Below are positions 14,443 to 60,112 of a DNA stretch of 64,000 nucleotides, piece by piece. Positions within the stretch are counted from its first letter, which is position 1. Every line of letters starts with the position of its first letter. A model generated the notes under the pieces. That model saw nothing but the letters and a program-made list of their open reading frames with translations. It made no database searches and was not told the DNA's origin. The position numbers and the translations under genes were made by a program. The stretch is from Halichondria panicea (Eukaryota > Porifera > Demospongiae > Suberitida > Halichondriidae): positions 1,302,501 to 1,366,500 of the forward strand of contig NC_087385.1 of NCBI RefSeq assembly GCF_963675165.1, in the 5' to 3' direction.

Positions 14443-14820
14443 TTATACACACAATGATATGGGTGCGTGCTGCTGTGACTACCACAGTGATCTGGTACAC
14501 TTACTAGTGATGTATAGTATATGGTCTGTCAGGCTTCTCCAGTACAGTAGTGCTGCTTTGTCTTCTTCCCAGAAATTTGTTTACACATAGATTGAGTAGT
14601 TTTTATGGTTTACAGTAGCCTACAAAACAGGAACGGTGTCATAAAATTTTGGGCCCCCCCATGTTTAGGCCCCCCCCCCCGGGCCTAGAATTTTAAAATT
14701 TTGGGACCCCCGGGCCTAGAATGTTAACAGTTTGGACCCCCTGGGGGGCCTAAACTGTTAACATTCTAGGCCCCCCACTGTGAGATTAGGCCCCCTCTTT
14801 TCTGCAGGAACAAAAAGCGC

Positions 14821-16597: not shown

Positions 16598-16630
16598 TAG
16601 CCTCGATTCCAGGGGCTGGAGTCGAGGCTA
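16598..16630. mobile_element. 33-bp TAGCCTCGA palindromic mini-element
   Basis: It starts TAGCCTCGATTCCAG and ends CTGGAGTCGAGGCTA. The flanks GCCTACATG and GCCTACACA agree at 7 of 9 positions, consistent with a decayed 9-bp target duplication. It is the smallest member of the family described at 17624. Confidence 0.6.
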
Positions 16631-17623: not shown

Positions 17624-18349
17624 TAGCCTCGAGACCAGGCCGATTAAAATACGGCCTGGTCTCTATTGCATGGGTGATAGTGCACATGCGCAAACTGAGT
17701 TCCCCAGAATCTGGGGAATTCGTTCACATTAGTAAACCTTTGTAAAATTATACCGTAAACTAGTTTGTTTACTAGTTTCTTTCCGTATTATTTTTAACAA
17801 ATACTTGTCTCCTGTGGCTTTATGCCCTCTATTGTGTTGTCAAGAAGGCTACACACTTGTCTAAAGCCAGAAGAGGCTCTCTACGATGGTCCTATGGTGG
17901 CAGTTGGAAGCACAAAGTCAAAGACTTGCCATAGTCTGTCAGAAACACTTTAAACTCTCTCTCCTGTGAAGCTGTGGCTTATATCCTCTACTGTGTTGTC
18001 GAGAAGGTTTGCACACTATTATGAAACCAGAAAAGGCTCACATCTACCTCTACGATGGTCCTATGGTTGCAGTTGGAAGCACAAAGTCAAAGACTTGCCA
18101 TAGTTTGTCAGAAACCCAGTTCAAAACATCACGACCATCCAACCATCATAGAGGTAGATGAGAGCCTCTTCTGGCTTCGTGTGCAAGCCTTCTCAACACA
18201 ACACCATAGAGAAGGCCACAGCTAGCTAGCTAGCTAGGCTATAAAAAGCGAATAGTAGATAGTACATGGGCGTGGACGGCCACGCCTATAATTAATTACA
18301 CATGCAATAGGTACCAGGCCGTATTTTAATCGGCCTGGATTCGAGGCTA
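17624..18349. mobile_element. TAGCCTCGA-family element, 726 bp, 9-bp TSD
   Basis: The element is flanked by GTACAGTTC at 17615-17623 and 18350-18358. It begins TAGCCTCGAGACCAGG and ends CCTGGATTCGAGGCTA. Each end also has a subterminal palindrome around GGCCGATTAAAATACGGCC. The interior carries two tandem copies of a ~170-bp segment (from 17816 and 17970, with GTCCTATGGT and GCACAAAGTCAAAGACTTG) and an inverted partial third copy near 18150. It has no ORF of note, so it is non-autonomous. Confidence 0.85.
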
Positions 18350-19852: not shown

Positions 19853-20936
19853 TAGCCTCGATTCCAAGCCGCTGAGAAAGACGGCCTGGTATACACTGTT
19901 TACGCATGCACCAGAATTACCCAGAATCTGGGTAATCGTAAATTGCAGTATATTTATCAGTATTCTTATTCCGCATTAGTTTGTAAAACATTGATATCCG
20001 TTTCATTTATAATGATGTCATTGAAAAAAGAAATCTAGTCCAAGTTGTGTATGTAATGGCTGCTACCTTCTCATCTGCTCTTGCGTATGCGTTATCCTGT
20101 GTTGGAAAACCAGGTCTAGTCTTGAAAGACAAGCAGCTGGAGGCGTTGAAGTGTCTGTACGCTGGTGTTTATGTGGGTACCGTACCGACCGGCTATGGCA
20201 AGTCCCAGAGAGCAAGTCCATCTGCTTTCCAGACACTCCCTTTCTTGATTGATGTAAAGCTTGACAGGACCAGTGCACCTCTCTCTGAAAGAAGTGTTGT
20301 GATGGTGATTTCTCCTCTTGTTTCTCTGAGTGAAGCCATCTTCAAAGTGTTGGTGTGTCTGTTCGACGTTCAGTGCCATTCTCTCTGGAAGGAAGTATTG
20401 TTGTGACATTTGCCGAAAATTGGTCACAGAGTAAGTACGTGGTATCTGATCCGAGAACTGTGTGGCCTGAATGTGTTTACAATCCGAGGGACTTGTTGCT
20501 TGAGTGTGTATCCGGACTTGTTGCTTGAGTATGTATTAATGGATAGTGCTTTCAATGGTAAATCTATTGTGTAAATCAATAAGTAGTCCTCACATTATGT
20601 TACGTCACAGCCACTGTACTTATCCACATTTATTTTTTACCCACAGGTTTAACTAATTTCTTATGAGAGTAACTTGTCGCCTGAGTGTGTATCCGATTCG
20701 AGCCTCAAGTTAATGAATAAATGTACAGAGCTGATGTTTTACTTAGCTGTCTCTGTCTACAGTATATACAGAGAGGTAGCCTCTCCTTTTTCTTTTTTCT
20801 GTTCTTTATCACAATAAGATAAAATACTGTTTTAACGTTCAATGAGATAAAATACGGTAAATAATAAATTAATTGTCCACCCACGCGCCAACAGTAAATA
20901 CCAGGCCCACTATTCAAGGGGCTGGAGTCGAGGCTA
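19853..20936. mobile_element. TAGCCTCGA-family element carrying a RecQ-like fragment, 9-bp TSD
   Basis: It is flanked by GACAATGGA at 19844-19852 and 20937-20945, both exact. It begins TAGCCTCGATTCCAAGCC and ends GGCTGGAGTCGAGGCTA. The subterminal motif CCCAGAATCTGGG is shared with the 726-bp member. It is inserted in the outer element. Confidence 0.85.
20056..20406 (+). pseudogene. RecQ-like helicase N-terminal fragment
   Basis: The 116-residue ORF has a Q-motif-like LKDKQLEALKCLYAG, a Walker A-like PTGYGKS (motif I) and VVMVISPLVSL (motif Ia), the order seen in RecQ-family DNA helicases. The frame then ends. No DEAH box, later helicase motifs, RQC or HRDC domain follow within the element, so it cannot be a working helicase. 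GTG codons lie upstream, but the ATG at 20056 is the first ATG. Similar RecQ-like fragments are common in sponge and cnidarian repeats (recollection, not searched). Confidence 0.65.
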
Positions 20937-21238: not shown

Positions 21239-22798
21239 TAGCCTCGAGACCAGCCGTTCGTTATCTGAAAGATTTCTTGGACCGGTAATTGCCCACAAAG
21301 GTCCGCCCAAGGTGTATTACCCATGAATATCATTATGATGCTATAAAACGCTGACTCAGCTAGAACGAGTGCTACATTGGCAGAATTACTCTACACCTAC
21401 CTCGTGCTCGATTATAGCTACCTGTGTTTAAAGATACCTGAGTTTAAAGATGTCTTCTCCCTCTGGTTCCATCTCTCCTACACCGAGGGACACACCCGCC
21501 GACCTGGTGGCCCTCAACGAAAGGCTCTCCACCCTCGAGCAGGCCCTGGCTGCAGCTCAACAGACTCACCAGCCTCATCACCGTGAGTCCTACATTCTTT
21601 GCCCACCCTGCCCTGCCCTCACCCATATTGCTTATAACAGCCTACAATAACAGCTTATAAAATACCGCCCCGCTCTGCTCCATACTATATACTGCCCTGC
21701 TATAGTATACTGCCCTGCTATAGTATACTGCCCCTATATTACGCTCTATAACGTTGCCCGGCCCTGCTCTATATTGTAAGGCTCTATAATAATTATACTG
21801 CAATGTACTGCTCTATAATATACTGCCATAATATACTGCCCTATGCCAGCTCTATGCCAGCTCTATGCCCGCTCTGCTCTATAATGTACTGCTCTATAAC
21901 ATACTTGCTCTATAATGTACTGCCCGCTGAGGCTGCTCTGTTCTGTAATGTGCTGCTCTATAATATGCCGTGTACTGCCCAGCTCTATACTTTACTGCCC
22001 CGCCTACCACCCTACCCCGTATACCGCCAATCTATCACTTGGCGAACCCCCCCCCCTGACGCACACTCGCCCACAGGTACCATAGACAGCGGAATGCCGT
22101 CCGCAGCCACCCTTGGATTACCTACCTTCCAAGCTGACTCCTCCCCAACCATGCTCCTGCCCCCCTCTGCCAGCATCCGACCCCCACCCCTGGTCCCCAC
22201 CCACCCCACAGCGCTCCCACCTGCTCCCACTACCAACCCTCTCGCGGGCTTCCCGGACATTCCAACCATCCCCCCCAAACTACTCGACACGATTCTCTCC
22301 TGGCAGTACACGGACCTCTCGGAGCTGCTGCCCGATCAGCTTCGCTCCAGCTCTTCCACCACAGACCAACAAATCGTCCTTTTCCCTCAACGTAGCTGGG
22401 AAAGCCAGAAGAAACGAAAAAGACAAATAATCGATATCGCCACATGGGTGCAGCTGTATAGCACCTACATCCTAATCCTCTCGTCCAGACACCCGCAAGC
22501 CTTACCAGAATTAATAGCATATCAATTATTTATCGTCAAAGCAGCAAAGAAGTTTAGGTACCCCTCTTGGCTGTACTACGATACAGAGTACCAGAAATGG
22601 GCCGCCGCAACACACTGCCAAGAGTGGTCCACCATTAACACCCAGCTATACTCCCTCGCCTTTACCGAACAAGGCAACCCTGTGTCGTGGTGCCCGATAT
22701 GCCAGGTCGACGGAGGAAACCACACCTTTGACTGGCTCTGCTACATTGGAACTTGACCAGGCGTTCTTTCAGATAACGAACGGCTGGTCTCGAGGCTA
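21239..22798. mobile_element. TAGCCTCGA-family element with intact spliced ORF, 9-bp TSD
   Basis: The two 33-bp termini (21239-21271 and 22766-22798) are exact reverse complements, and TACCAACAG flanks both sides (21230-21238 and 22799-22807). It is inserted in the outer element, about 0.3 kb from the RecQ-bearing member. Perfect termini and TSD suggest a recent insertion. Confidence 0.9.
21450..22756 (+). CDS. Two-exon Gag-like zinc-knuckle protein carried by the transposon (270 aa)
   Basis: Exon 1 is 21450-21582 (starts MSSPSGSISP, ends at CATCACC|GTGAGT) and exon 2 is 22077-22756 (acceptor CCCACAG). The sum is 813 nt, in frame, with one stop. The N-terminus is a predicted short coiled coil (LVALNERLSTLEQALAAAQ). 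A long Pro/Ser/Thr-rich linker follows, then a folded part with PPKLLDTILSWQYTDLSELLP, WVQLYSTYI and WSTINTQLY. It ends with a CPIC ... H ... C knuckle (C-x2-C-x6-H-x5-C). This layout resembles the first ORF of DIRS-type/tyrosine-recombinase retroelements, recalled from memory. No reverse transcriptase or recombinase is present. The intron is pyrimidine-rich with many CTCTAT/CTGC words. Confidence 0.65.
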
Positions 22799-32800: not shown

Positions 32801-33077
32801 TGTCAAGATCAAGCTTTCCCATGTCTTTGAAGTAAGAATACCCATTACCACCACCAAAGGTGTACAGGCAACGACCTACACAAACAGAGCAACCACCCCG
32901 CTCTCCAGAGGGTAGAGGTCCAGTGGTGGGCAAGAGGCTCCACAGCTCAGTGCTTGGATCATACACAGCAATTATATTAGACCCCCATTCTGGACCATCT
33001 CCCCTCCACAGGTAATGGCGTCCATCAGCTGCAGAAAATGGACCCCAACGAGGTGATGGTTCAATGGGAGCATCCAT
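29811..33077 (-). CDS. Kelch - coiled coil - TKL kinase, copy 5
   Basis: Exons are 32588-33077, 32316-32476, 32076-32264, 31228-31372 and 29811-31114, total 2289 nt (762 residues), all GT-AG. It starts MDAPIEPSP. The kelch blades are regular. The linker ELTGPSASVAGPSAGKWAL and a ~170-residue coiled coil with RAQLAEQ repeats precede the kinase. The kinase has GGGGWGVV, VAAK, HRDISSANVLL, DYG and YAAPE. The C-terminus ends LLNELC. This is the first gene of the array; its upstream neighbour is FAM162-like on the other strand, about 0.5 kb away start to start. The substrate and ligand of the kelch domain cannot be told from sequence. Confidence 0.9.
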
Positions 33078-33300: not shown

Positions 33301-33371
33301 CCCCCCTTTAGCGTGTTAAACCTCGATTTTAGGACGCTTAAATATCAACTAGAATCGAGGCTAACAGACCC

Positions 33372-33416
33372 TAGCCTCGATTCCAGGCCGATTAAATCGG
33401 CCTTGAATCGAGGCTA
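33372..33416. mobile_element. 45-bp TAGCCTCGA mini-element with perfect 9-bp TSD
   Basis: The 45 bases run TAGCCTCGATTCCAGGCCG to CGGCCTTGAATCGAGGCTA, flanked by AACAGACCC at 33363-33371 and 33417-33425. It is a near-perfect palindrome with no interior. A second, more decayed copy (CCTCGATTTTAGG to AGAATCGAGGCTA) directly precedes it. Both sit in the kelch copy 5/FAM162 promoter interval. Confidence 0.85.
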
Positions 33417-33562
33417 AACAGACCCCTACCATGGTGCAGTGAGGTGTGACTTGTAAGTGTCTACGTACGTGTGTACGTATACATGTGCTAGAGGTGTGTC
33501 TAGTCTCAATCTTGGTAATCCTCTCTCTCACAGGACATCCAAGAGATTAAGCAAGAGCAGTC

Positions 33563-34923
33563 ATGTTAGGGCTTAGGAGGTATTGCTACCAGTCCACACC
33601 TCAGCACAAGGTCTCTGGTTATGACAAGTTTGTGCTCAGGATCACTGGACTCTCAGAGGGAGTCTCTTACAACTCAATCAGGTGATTTATAATTCTGTTC
33701 TCACTTTCATTCTACATTTTCTGGTCATACAAAAAATGCATACAAAGACCGATGGGTCCGAATCATTGATGAAATGCTGTCAGCAATGCATTACTTAGTC
33801 ATTACCGACATCCAAATGTGTTTGTGAGTACAAGGGGGTATTATGAGACATCAAACTGTTTTTAACTCTGGCCCCTAGCTGTCTTGCAGTAATCTTGTGG
33901 GAGCAAACTAGTCTGCTCACTAACAACCATGATCAATAGGCTTTACATTTGTGCAATGAATTTTAGTGACAGTGCCTTGCTTGCAGTGTTTTAAAGTGTT
34001 TGAAGGGATTCCGGTATTACGATACAGGGGGGATATTCAGGGTGTCATACAGGGGGGTATTACAAGACACGTACCATGGCAACTCATTACTAAGTAGCTA
34101 CTTCTGGTAACTAATACTGTCATCCCTCTGTCCTCTGTCTACAGAAACAGTCGCCACTGTTTTAACAAAACCATTAATTTTACACCCACTGATTATTTCG
34201 TCAATTAAGATGTTTTCTCCAATTAAATGCTGTATTTAAACTAACTATCGAGGTATCTCTGTCAACACAAGCATACAGCTCCAAATACTAGAGAAGATAT
34301 AATAGCTGAAGCACTCTTTATCAGCATAAGATATAATTATAGTTGAAGTATATACCCTTTCATCAAGAGTATATGATAGAGAGAGAGTATCGAACGTAGG
34401 CATACTGTGTATCAGATGTATGCGGAGAGTAATGTAACTTCCTGTATCTGTCACAAGCTTGGAATTTGCACACTGACCAATCCAAGTGTGGGTGATGTAA
34501 TCTACTTTCTTGATAGATTACATCACCCACACTTGGATTGGTCAGTGTGCAAATTCAAAGCTTGTGACAGATACAGGAAGTCACGTTACTCTCCGCATAC
34601 ATCCGATACACAGTATCATGTATTGTTGGTCTGTTTTACAATACCTGTTACTCTGTATATACATGCCCTAGCTATCGCAGTTTCCTGGGTGTAAAATGGT
34701 TTACATTATGCTTCTTTTCCCCTGCAGTATTGAGCGGATGGAGAAGGCCAACTCTCGATTCCGTATTGGTCTAATGTTTTTGATGATGGGATTCAGTGTA
34801 GCCGGGTCAGTGTATGCAGTGATGTTGGGGAAGAGGGACAGAGCTGAGCATGTGCACAGTGTGACGCAGCAGAACATAGAGAGACATGCCAAAGCAAAGG
34901 CCAAGTCTCTGCAGGAGAAATGA
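33563..34923 (+). CDS. FAM162: FAM162/UPF0389 family small membrane protein
   Basis: Exon 1 coding is 33563-33681 and exon 2 is 34728-34923, total 315 nt (104 residues). A non-coding first exon ends at a donor at 33453 and contains ATGGTGCAGTGA, a two-codon upstream ORF. The protein has the family's SGYDKFVLRITG block. After the splice come ERMEKANSRFRIG, one hydrophobic helix (LMFLMMGFSVAGSVYAVML), and a basic, Lys-rich tail. Vertebrate FAM162A is a mitochondrial-associated factor; the role here is unknown. The single intron (33682-34727) carries a long perfect-looking hairpin at 34402-34616. Confidence 0.85.
34402..34616. repeat. Long inverted repeat, ~103-bp arms, 9-bp spacer
   Basis: The arms are 34402-34504 and 34514-34616, with only a handful of mismatches; a shared core is GTGTGGGTGATGTAATCTA. 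It lies in the FAM162 intron. It may be a recent foldback MITE; its RNA would form a long hairpin. Confidence 0.9.
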
Positions 34924-35302: not shown

Positions 35303-43737
<8,435 letters not shown>

Positions 43738-47100: not shown

Positions 47101-50100
47101 ATGACCAGTCTCAACCTGGGCACTATATTTGGGCCCCACCTCCTAGCCCCTCAGGTGAGTCATACCCACGTGTACATGTATAGAGTCTAGGGTCTAGGTT
47201 GTACATGTAGGTTGTGCCCAAAGTTTCCATAGCGTGTGTTTGAACCTGCGTTAGCGACCACATCTTTATTTCAGCCACTAATTAAGGTCTAGGTTTAGCT
47301 TCCAGTGACCTGTCTATAGTGGTCACCCTAGGGCAGACCAACAATGGCTGTAATAAAGAGGTGGCCTGCTAACACACAAGCTATGGAGACTTGGAGCTGG
47401 CTGTATTATAGAGGATGACCTACATGTAAAGTAGACAGGTTCCACTGGCTGTACTGTGTAATCGTACTAACTTGAACCAAGATATTGTGTGATTCCCTGC
47501 AAATACCTTATGCAGCTAGTTGGCTTACTCTGGCAACAGCACTGTACTGAATTACTGATCTAGCCTTGATAGTATATTAATAATTATACTTAGCTTTCAA
47601 AATCCCCTAAAACACAGTCTTCCAACAAAGCCCAACAACAACTGACTTCAAACCACCACACCCAAAACAACATTGTATCACCTGTCCCTACCCCCCACAG
47701 ACAAATGACCCTCAACTGCTAATGGAGAGCACAAGTGTGTCCACGGACTTTATTCGTATTCTCCTCACGTGGCACGAAGAGTTGTTTCCTGTCACGGCTG
47801 ACGAGAGAGCACCTAAAAGACTCTCTGTACTCATACCTGGTGAGACATCAATGGCACGTTTTAATACCAGGCCTAGCTGTGTTTGCTCCCCTCCCTCTTA
47901 GTTCTAACTATAATTATCATAATTATGCCTTAATCATGTGTGTAATTTTCTAACTATAATTATTATACGAATACGTCTCCACCTTCCCACTCCTCCGGAT
48001 AATGCAACTATAATTATTGATCTGTATACATTGTATTATGTACTGTTTGTGTCAAAATTAAATGTATTATTTCATGGAGTTTTCTAAAAATCAGTTGATG
48101 TTAACACAGTTTATCTTATAAAACAGTCGATTTGTATAACAGCAGTTGATGTTTATAGCAGTCGGTCGATGTTTCTAAGAGTCTATGTTATAAAAAAGAG
48201 TCAATGTCTATAACAGAGTCGATGTTTACCATATCATTAGTCTTCTATGTTTTGTAGTAGGTCGGCCTTTACTAATTTCAATATCATTAGTCTTCTATGT
48301 TTTGTAGTAGGTCGGCCTTTACTAATTTCAATATAATTATCTGTAAACTGTAGAGTGGGGTGGGGCTGCACAGAGCAGGCAGTTGACCTTAGTTCATTAT
48401 AAGGTCACTCATTGGGTTTCTCCAGCCTGCTCTGTGCAGCACCCCAGGCCCTCGGCTCAGGCTCCATTCATCCTCCAGTTTACCGGTGAATTGAAATTAG
48501 TAAAGGTCGACTAACTACAAAACACAGAAGACTAATGATTAGTAAACATAAATTCTTATAACTTGACTTTTTTAATAACATCGACTCTTAGTAAACATTG
48601 ACTCTTAGAAAGCATCCGACTCTTAGTAAACATCGCCTCCTTTATAAGGAGCATGAGAGGAGGGAGCGTCTTACTATGCATAGTGGATTCACTATCACCT
48701 TAAGCTAACCACACTCCTTGTTTGCATGTGCTAAGTGCTCTGTACTGTGTGTGGCTGAAATTCCTGAAATACGGTTGATCTAATAATACTGAATACTATT
48801 AAGTACAATGAATAATGTTAGCAGGTCTTATAGCGGTTTGATATATATGGCATGATGATTTGTACATAGCTAGACGATCCGCGTAGCGCTCCATCCCTCA
48901 TCTGCTCCGAGGCATCCATTTTGGATTTTTACACAAACGGCACCATATTGTACGTACATGTACATGTACAAACATTTAATTATGACATGATGATGTGTGT
49001 CTTTTGTTAGGTGCATAGAATCTTGACACAGTGATTCAATCCCTTCATCCCGTCCCTACAGGTGAACTGGACTCACTGTCTGCCTGGAGCTCTAAGCTCA
49101 TGCAACACTCACTCTACCAGCCCAAGCCACAGAAACACCGCTTCAGACCACGACAAAACTCCGCCCCTCCGAACAGAAAGAAGGAGCACAAGGGACGATG
49201 TGAGTCTATAATCTAATCGAGCGCATAGGAGAAGCTACATGTATAATGGCTCGTTATCTTTACACTTGCGGCAATGCCTACAGAAAATAGTGTGTGCAAG
49301 CGCCAGCTTTTTTTTGTGCCTATATAATCCTTTAGAATATGCTCTCAATTACATGTACAAGCAAAGAAGAGAATCACTCATTAGCCCATTCAGTGGTACA
49401 TGTATAGTATGTGTTGACGGTATCCATGCACACTCAGAGGGGGTCCGACACGAGTACCTCAATTAGGCTGAAATTGAGTTAATAATTATTAGTCACATGC
49501 AACAATGTTATTTTTGCACGTGACCAAGCCTAATCGAGCCTAATCGAGGTACTCATGTCGTGCCTCCTCTGATCAAGAGCTAAGAGTAGACTGGAAAATT
49601 TCCCCGCTATACGGTAATACTTTTATGACAGTATCCATGCATGCACACTTATCCCCCTCCCTGCACAGTATCCATGCACACTTATCCCCCTCCCTGCACA
49701 GTATCCATGCACACTTATCCCCCTCCCTGCACAGTATCCATGCACACTTATCCCCCTCCCTGCACAGTATCCATCCATGCACACTTATCCCCCTCCCTGC
49801 ACAGTATCCATGCACACTTATCCCCCTCCCTGCACAGTATCCATGCACACTTATCCCCCTCCCTGCACAGTTGGTAAGGTGGCGTCCATGGTGGAGCAGT
49901 TCAACCTCCGCACCAACTCTAAGCACATCACGGAGTCACTATCCAGCACCAACGTCACAATCAGTGGACCAATCATCGAAGATCAAGAGATCTCACTCAA
50001 CGGACATATTCCTATAACAACAGCGGAACTCCACAGCAGTAACGAGGGGTCGTCACTCCCTGACAACTCTCTCTGGAAGAATAGCCCGCTCTACACTCCT

Positions 50101-59732: not shown

Positions 59733-60112
59733 CTTTACTGAATCAGCTTCCTGGAAAGGGTCGACAAATCTATGAATCTAGGGTAGCGTTCCTCGATTCC
59801 AGGCCGCTTGAGACGCACAGGGATCGAGGTAGCCTCGATTCCAGGCCGATTTTAATGCGGCCTGGAATCGAGGCTAGGATCGAGGCTAATCAGAGAGAGG
59901 AGATGCTTGTAAGTTTGCACATATCAAATAAACGCAGGAATGTCACACATTCCCTTCTGAGTTTTAGCATATAAACGGCTAAGATCTCTAGTTCTTAGTT
60001 AAAACGTTTTGCTACTGCAACTGCAACTGTACCTTCTTCTACAGAAAAGCTCTTCTCTACTCATGCTACATTAATTTTTCATTTGCTGTTGTACTGCACT
60101 TAATACAAAAAG
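59733..60112. promoter_or_regulatory. Divergent promoter interval, UVR gene / alpha-tubulin 1
   Basis: 380 bases lie between the start codons and contain the nested mini-elements at about 59791-59888. The part nearest the tubulin (59930-60112) is free of repeats and probably holds its promoter and 5' UTR. Confidence 0.5.
59830..59876. mobile_element. 47-bp TAGCCTCGA mini-element with perfect 9-bp TSD, nested in another copy
   Basis: The element starts TAGCCTCGATTCCAGGCCG, ends CGGCCTGGAATCGAGGCTA and is flanked by GGATCGAGG at 59821-59829 and 59877-59885. The flanking sequence is itself the right end of an older copy (CCTCGATTCCAGGCCGCTTG from 59791), whose final CTA resumes after the insertion. 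Confidence 0.9.

Follow-up and report, generated by a model that had tools for sequence, protein, structure and literature searches.

Genomic context of the 45-bp element

The window analysed in this study, a stretch of 64,000 nt of Halichondria panicea DNA, carried on its minus strand one ORF with a Kelch match and another of the protein kinase type, and the interruptions in the reading frames look like introns. The likely start codon of the Kelch ORF was at 33077 (minus strand), and a plus-strand reading frame of 39 aa, for which no Pfam match was found, began at a likely start codon at 33563. The earlier note had placed the near-palindrome in the promoter interval of two genes; with divergent genes on either side this placement is plausible, because the element lies in the 485-bp interval between those two starts.

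The claimed 45-bp near-palindrome with exact 9-bp duplications was confirmed at 33372-33416, with AACAGACCC on both sides of the sequence TAGCCTCGATTCCAGGCCGATTAAATCGGCCTTGAATCGAGGCTA (Table 1). Its two 22-nt arms were 95% complementary, and as single-stranded DNA it is predicted to fold into a hairpin whose stem has a single mismatch and whose loop is 3 nt long, at -21.9 kcal/mol, a stability reached by 0 of 200 shuffles. Scanning of the window found exact 9-bp repeats around 19 of 63,931 segments of 45 bp, and a low-complexity filter reduced those 19 to the 33372 site and three overlapping positions at 47961-47963, in an AT-rich run. Judged from its termini and duplication, the 45-bp sequence is a real insertion of a family of DNA transposons with terminal inverted repeats (TIRs).

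Table 1. Family members and target-site duplications located in the window
Feature	Position	Strand	Remarks
45-bp element (the finding)	33372..33416	.	a 22-bp terminal inverted repeat at each end, 1-nt centre
Left 9-bp target-site duplication	33363..33371	.	AACAGACCC; begins with the A that ends the older copy
Right 9-bp target-site duplication	33417..33425	.	AACAGACCC
Older degenerate 46-bp family member	33318..33363	.	directly upstream of the 45-bp element; left 9 bp TAGCGTGTT
47-bp sibling	59830..59876	.	exact repeat GGATCGAGG at 59821-59829 and 59877-59885; lies within the terminal part of an older member
33-bp sibling	16598..16630	.	flanking 9-mers GCCTACATG and GCCTACACA, 7/9 match
726-bp member	17624..18349	.	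repeat GTACAGTTC; hairpin CCAGGCCG..loop..CGGCCTGG in each end
1,084-bp member	19853..20936	+	repeat GACAATGGA; helicase-like fragment, stop-to-stop frame 19987-20406
1,560-bp member	21239..22798	+	repeat TACCAACAG; open frames

No flanking repeat of its own was recognisable for the older 46-bp copy. Once the 45-bp element and one repeat were taken out, this older copy ended intact in ...GAGGCTA, with ACAGACCCCTACC directly after it, and removal of the 47-bp sibling at 59830 together with one repeat restored GGGATCGAGGCTA in the older member that it had entered.

Family size and target-site duplications

The terminal sequence of the family, referred to here as the TAGCC family, was TAGCCTCGAnnCCAGGCCG. 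In a genome of 131.5 Mb in 39 contigs, the pattern TAGCCTCGA N15-40 TCGAGGCTA (33-58 bp) was found at 842 places, N41-71 between the same ends (59-89 bp) at 260 places, and N26-27 (44-45 bp) at 70 places, counts that include segmental duplicates and, in the longer class, some matches spanning neighbouring elements. The reversed-pattern control returned 0 for each length class.

Flanks were compared in a first sample of 66 short copies, which gave 44 distinct flank strings; 6 of these strings were variants of one duplicated site, and orientation was uncollapsed. Orientation was collapsed in the long-member, 87-copy and centre comparisons described below. The excess of 9-bp duplications on which the earlier note had made its claim depend was present in this sample, with exact 9-bp repeats in 23 of the 44 flank strings (34 of 44 at a match of at least 7/9) against 3 of 1,892 mismatched pairings. 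At 8 matching bases the same control gave 16 of 1,892, and some of its high matches came from duplicated sites with shared flanks. Apart from length 3, length 9 was the only one at which exact repeats occurred in the 44 flank strings. Among 87 short copies with distinct flanks, 44 had an exact 9-bp repeat and 56 a repeat matching at 8/9 or better, while 24 fell below 7/9 (for example L007, L050, L054, L055, L060 and L065). Across 50 exact repeats with orientations pooled, the only sign of a target preference was a slight enrichment of G at the first and C at the ninth position (0.45).

The short copies have three of the features by which MITEs are recognised, namely terminal inverted repeats at both ends, a target duplication of fixed length, and a multi-copy, dispersed distribution; they also have that of a solo TIR, a short palindrome of both ends between intact target duplications. 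Members of the Mutator superfamily (MULEs) duplicate a target of about 9 bp, with which the duplication of the TAGCC family agrees.

Several repeated occurrences were traced to duplication of the surrounding DNA. The same 50-bp member occurred 17 times at about 1.28-2.38 Mb of C1, in one orientation and with nearly identical flanks, and these copies probably belong to one large segmental array. Because its copies differ by point changes, this array accounted for the 6 related strings among the 44. The 50-bp form, all of whose copies lie on C1 in one orientation with near-same flanks, was rejected as proof of a mobile micro-unit. Five 45-mers on C11 represented one duplicated site, and a 59-mer (L123) and a 58-mer (L001) with a common repeat are probably one duplicated site as well. 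A cluster of TAGCC-type ends at about 5.69-6.41 Mb of C10, in minus orientation at 5.69-5.93 Mb and in plus orientation at 6.26-6.41 Mb, suggests a large inverted array.

Longer members of the family

In 307.8 kb of sampled sequence, 37 elements with distinct flanks, from 36 to 1,560 bp, shared the same ends and carried repeats matching at 8/9 or better; 30 of the 37 were 58 bp or shorter, in a sample that had been picked mainly for short forms. Outside the window, the longer members measured 232, 516 and 1,065 bp, with a further one of 97 bp whose repeat matched at 8/9.

No Pfam match above the cut-off was found in two tested stretches of the 1,560-bp member in the window, which holds a 334-codon stop-to-stop frame at 21752-22756 (tested part 22079-22753, without a Pfam match above the cut-off). 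The helicase-like fragment of the 1,084-bp member matched DEAD (PF00270) with an E-value of 0.00039, below the cut-off, and gave 150 scored matches from 516 candidates in the genome. With a sub-threshold domain match and a high-copy fragment, this element was rejected as an autonomous member. Many of the fragment's matches came as two pieces that overlap, covering about 1-65 and 49-116 of the query, a pattern that a frameshift or an intron common to the copies would give. No transposase was recognised inside the ends of the TAGCC family, by a genome-wide search that covered the MULE family only.

That search yielded 31 PF10551 hits, of which 30 loci were seen with about 1.5 kb on each side, and four 8-kb stretches, all of one lineage, were read. 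The lineage read at 8 kb had other ends, TTTACGCTGTGACTATTC. This lineage was rejected as the source of the short copies: the 36-bp and 57-bp copies found there were passengers in a MULE that measures about 3.65 kb and has those ends as its own. Four near-identical MULE copies (L076-L079, 98-99.7%), two of them with an 809-codon open frame, belong to elements that were possibly active recently.

A paralogous empty site

The 36-bp passenger was carried by three copies of the 3.65-kb MULE (L096 1918-5568, L097 1704-5393 and L098 1668-5415). The copy in L098 also contained a 57-bp member of the TAGCC family with the repeat GCAACTTCC, for which the paralogous MULE copies in L096 and L097, lacking it, supplied an empty site; the joined flanks of L098 aligned with them along their full 120 bp, without a net gap, at 98.3% identity. 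Because this copy is absent from paralogues of such identity, some short insertions look fairly recent. Positions 1754-1873 of L098 comprised three copies of GCAACTTCC separated by the 57-bp and 36-bp elements, a record of two insertions into one and the same 9-bp target, the 57-bp member having entered the duplication of the 36-bp member.

An empty site for the 36-bp passenger was not found among 7 matches to the joined-flank pattern. One of these, C6:572348, was rejected as an empty site when it was read, the 36-bp copy being present with an extra TA; the other 6 began with GCTA like filled sites, and the 3 of them that were read at greater length (L096, L097 and L098) were filled.

Length variation at one site and recurrent centres

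A duplication on C11 preserved five copies of one insertion site with the repeat ACATTGTAA, between which the lengths differed: 232 bases in L019, 149 and 148 in L015 and L017, and 14 in L016 and L018. Since these lengths occur at a single duplicated site, members of the family lose sequence in place. By its structure the 14-bp state is a loss; the change between the 232-bp and 148-bp states may have run in either direction.

The 45-mers corresponded to 58-bp palindromes minus 13 central bases and occurred in two mirror-image forms at different sites. A 58-mer with the arms of the 33372 element and no flanking repeat was present in L054, and the 33372 element equals this 58-mer minus its 13 central bases. 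Its arm pair occurred with the 9-nt centre GATTAAATC (A-centre) at three sites (the window, L005 and L008) and with the mirror centre GATTTAATC (T-centre) at two (L009 and L010), and all five sites had different exact repeats. The 9-nt centre was also present with other arms; L057, which is 36 bp long and has another right arm, matched the 9-nt-centre pattern and was left out of the argument. The 8-nt centre GATTAATC was found in 6 different sequences with different arms and 8 flank strings, two of which probably represent one duplicated site. The recurrence of centres with the same and with different arms means that the same central deletions seem to recur, and we read the recurrent centres as repeated trimming of the palindrome centres.

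Ends of the kinds found on short copies were followed separately. GCATT-type ends occurred at 65 places (43 exact and 22 with one mismatch), of which 40 were fetched, a subset that left out most of the C10 cluster. Thirteen of the 40 were short copies and 27 had no second end within 95 bp; the inner arm GCCTGG continued 23 of these 27 unpaired ends, among which were two pairs with common flanks. TTCAAGG-type ends, the right-arm type of the 33372 element, occurred at 277 places, and 13 of them, a non-random selection from 100 listed, comprised 6 short copies, 4 ends leading into the same long GCCTGG-type sequence and 3 leading into other sequence. On these comparisons, ends of the kinds on short copies also sit on long elements.

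Origin of the 45-bp element

With a confidence slightly better than even, we regard the 33372 element as an ends-only (solo-TIR) remnant of a TIR transposon that makes 9-bp duplications, most likely shortened at its site, because the family has longer members, sequence was lost in place on C11, the ends of short forms also occur on long elements, centres recur, and the element is very small. A putative transposase supplied in trans would have inserted a family member with a 9-bp staggered cut, duplicating AACAGACCC. The inserted copy would probably have been longer at first, whether a 58-bp palindrome of the common kind or a member hundreds of bp in length. Its centre would have been lost in place by a deletion that the self-complementary ends may have favoured. 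Both termini and the duplication would remain, comparable to a solo LTR or to the remnant of Tn10 'nearly precise excision'. We infer that the 33372 copy itself shrank at its site, rather than arriving as 45 bp.

The claim of a complete 45-bp mobile element stood in part. A family insertion with both termini and a 9-bp duplication was recovered, in a family whose size range and in-place shrinkage at one other locus are evident in the sequences; that the 45-bp unit is mobile by itself is the less probable part, given longer members of up to 1,560 bp, the in-place shrinkage and the look of a central deletion.

A serious possibility, short of an even chance, is that the 45-bp palindrome, and likewise the 58/59-bp palindromes, is itself mobile as a micro-MITE, with a transposase pairing both ends or acting on an extruded hairpin. 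Identical short forms at different sites speak for this. The exact 45-mer was found a second time at C3:6443839-6443883 (L005) with the repeat TATTAACAT in place of AACAGACCC, and a one-base variant was found on C7 with GTAGCTAGA; its 21-bp core, AGGCCGATTAAATCGGCCTTG, occurred at only 4 places genome-wide, all in 45-bp copies. Another 45-mer, with the centre GATTAATGC, was identical at 3 sites with different repeats, as was a 58-mer at 3 sites, and an identical 59-mer occupied 5 sites with 5 different repeats (3 exact and 2 at 8/9). The 842 places at 33-58 bp and the absence of the 57-bp copy of L098 from its close paralogues favour the same explanation. So does the junction of the 59-mer, which needs an overlap of at most 2 bp and yet was commoner than the product of an 8-bp direct repeat, expected to be favoured: among the 13 short copies with GCATT-type ends, 7 had the former junction (two with a shared flank), whereas the latter explained 2.

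Against mobility of the palindrome itself, 45 bp is shorter than the 64-70 bp that the excerpts of PMC3464196 cite as the lower bound in vivo for cut-and-paste transposons of bacteria, and identical short forms could arise repeatedly from identical parents. The 50 copies listed out of the 70 of 44-45 bp had many different centres, and mirror-image central deletions recurred with the same and with different arms. Transposition as such is more credible for the 58/59-bp forms, on the evidence of the 59-mer junction, than for the 45-bp form. That these palindromes constitute an animal nuclear transposon moved in trans, perhaps as an extruded hairpin that presents both ends, is a proposal to which we give marginally lower odds.

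Selection on a host regulatory or structural hairpin between two divergent genes would be in keeping with the location of the element between the likely start codons at 33077 (minus) and 33563 (plus), and is very improbable as an explanation of a sequence type that recurs at hundreds of places, many with differing 9-bp repeats. Least probable of all is a tandem duplication, in which the 9-bp repeats would be part of a 54-bp unit duplicated with the directly adjacent older copy: AACAGACCC does follow both copies, but it is absent to the left of the older copy, whose sequence has many differences although the two 9-mers match exactly, other copies are flanked by exact 9-bp repeats of unrelated sequence, and no tandem neighbour is present within 20 bp on either side of the exact 45-mer at L005.

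Comparison with known systems

Paramecium IESs are removed during somatic development, and the 'nearly precise excision' of Tn10 is a classical bacterial process that leaves a short remnant with a 9-bp duplication. Both are close to the ends-only reading preferred here for the 33372 element. The excerpts of PMC3464196 describe Paramecium IESs as leftovers of TIR transposons with palindromic ends, many of them as short as the TAGCC copies, and report a proposal that solo TIRs arose there from recombination between short direct repeats in palindromic TIRs; IESs are bounded by TA, whereas 9-bp duplications were found here, and the IESs identified there as solo TIRs are among the largest. IES lengths are reported in PMC3464196 to follow a helical period of about 10 bp. 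In Tn10, an inverted-repeat transposon is mostly deleted between short direct repeats to give a short palindrome (PMC12524634, in excerpt); that system is bacterial and experimental, whereas the TAGCC family occupies many eukaryotic sites and its mechanism is a proposed one. PMC3310237, in excerpt, applies the name 'solo TIR' to something else, an additional TIR carried by a plant MULE.

MITEs resemble the TAGCC family in lacking coding capacity and in having two TIRs, a fixed-length duplication, many copies and longer relatives with the same ends; the TAGCC copies differ in their length of 33-58 bp, which leaves almost no interior, and in having many centres instead of one amplified consensus. 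According to the excerpts of PMC3169594, Tm1 of root-knot nematodes is a Mutator/Foldback family that shares 9-bp duplications, foldback-like ends, and MITE-like members alongside members with other sequence, but its MITE-like members are longer (431 bp on average) and its termini are CGGTTAA and CCTACCC. Bacterial REP elements are likewise palindromes of 20-40 bp in high copy number; they are prokaryotic, and 9-bp target duplications go unmentioned for them in the excerpt of PMC3733652. Hairpin elements of sponge mitochondria are short dispersed hairpins in animal DNA (PMC2800124, in excerpt), differing in their mitochondrial location, and the likeness is one of description, not of sequence. 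Among the matches listed from the open-licence PMC literature, no paper on the TAGCC family, or on an animal nuclear family dominated by copies of 33-58 bp, was found.

Hundreds of copies of 33-58 bp, many keeping both ends and the duplication, mark a lower size limit for transposons, and they form a natural series on palindrome trimming and on the minimum length of a mobile unit. Ordinary repeat annotation applies length filters that exclude copies this short, and such copies are therefore likely to escape notice in other genomes. Mobility of the short forms would call for an exception in models of end pairing by transposases; if the short forms are scars, they are a record of past insertions, much like solo LTRs.

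Other inverted repeats were also seen in the window. Two with 30-nt arms, at 36654-36748 (100% complementary) and 14712-14773 (93%), were of other sequence types. About 1 kb from the 45-bp element, at 34402-34616, a near-perfect inverted repeat with 103-nt arms (96% complementary) and a 9-nt spacer is, by its structure, another hairpin-type element.
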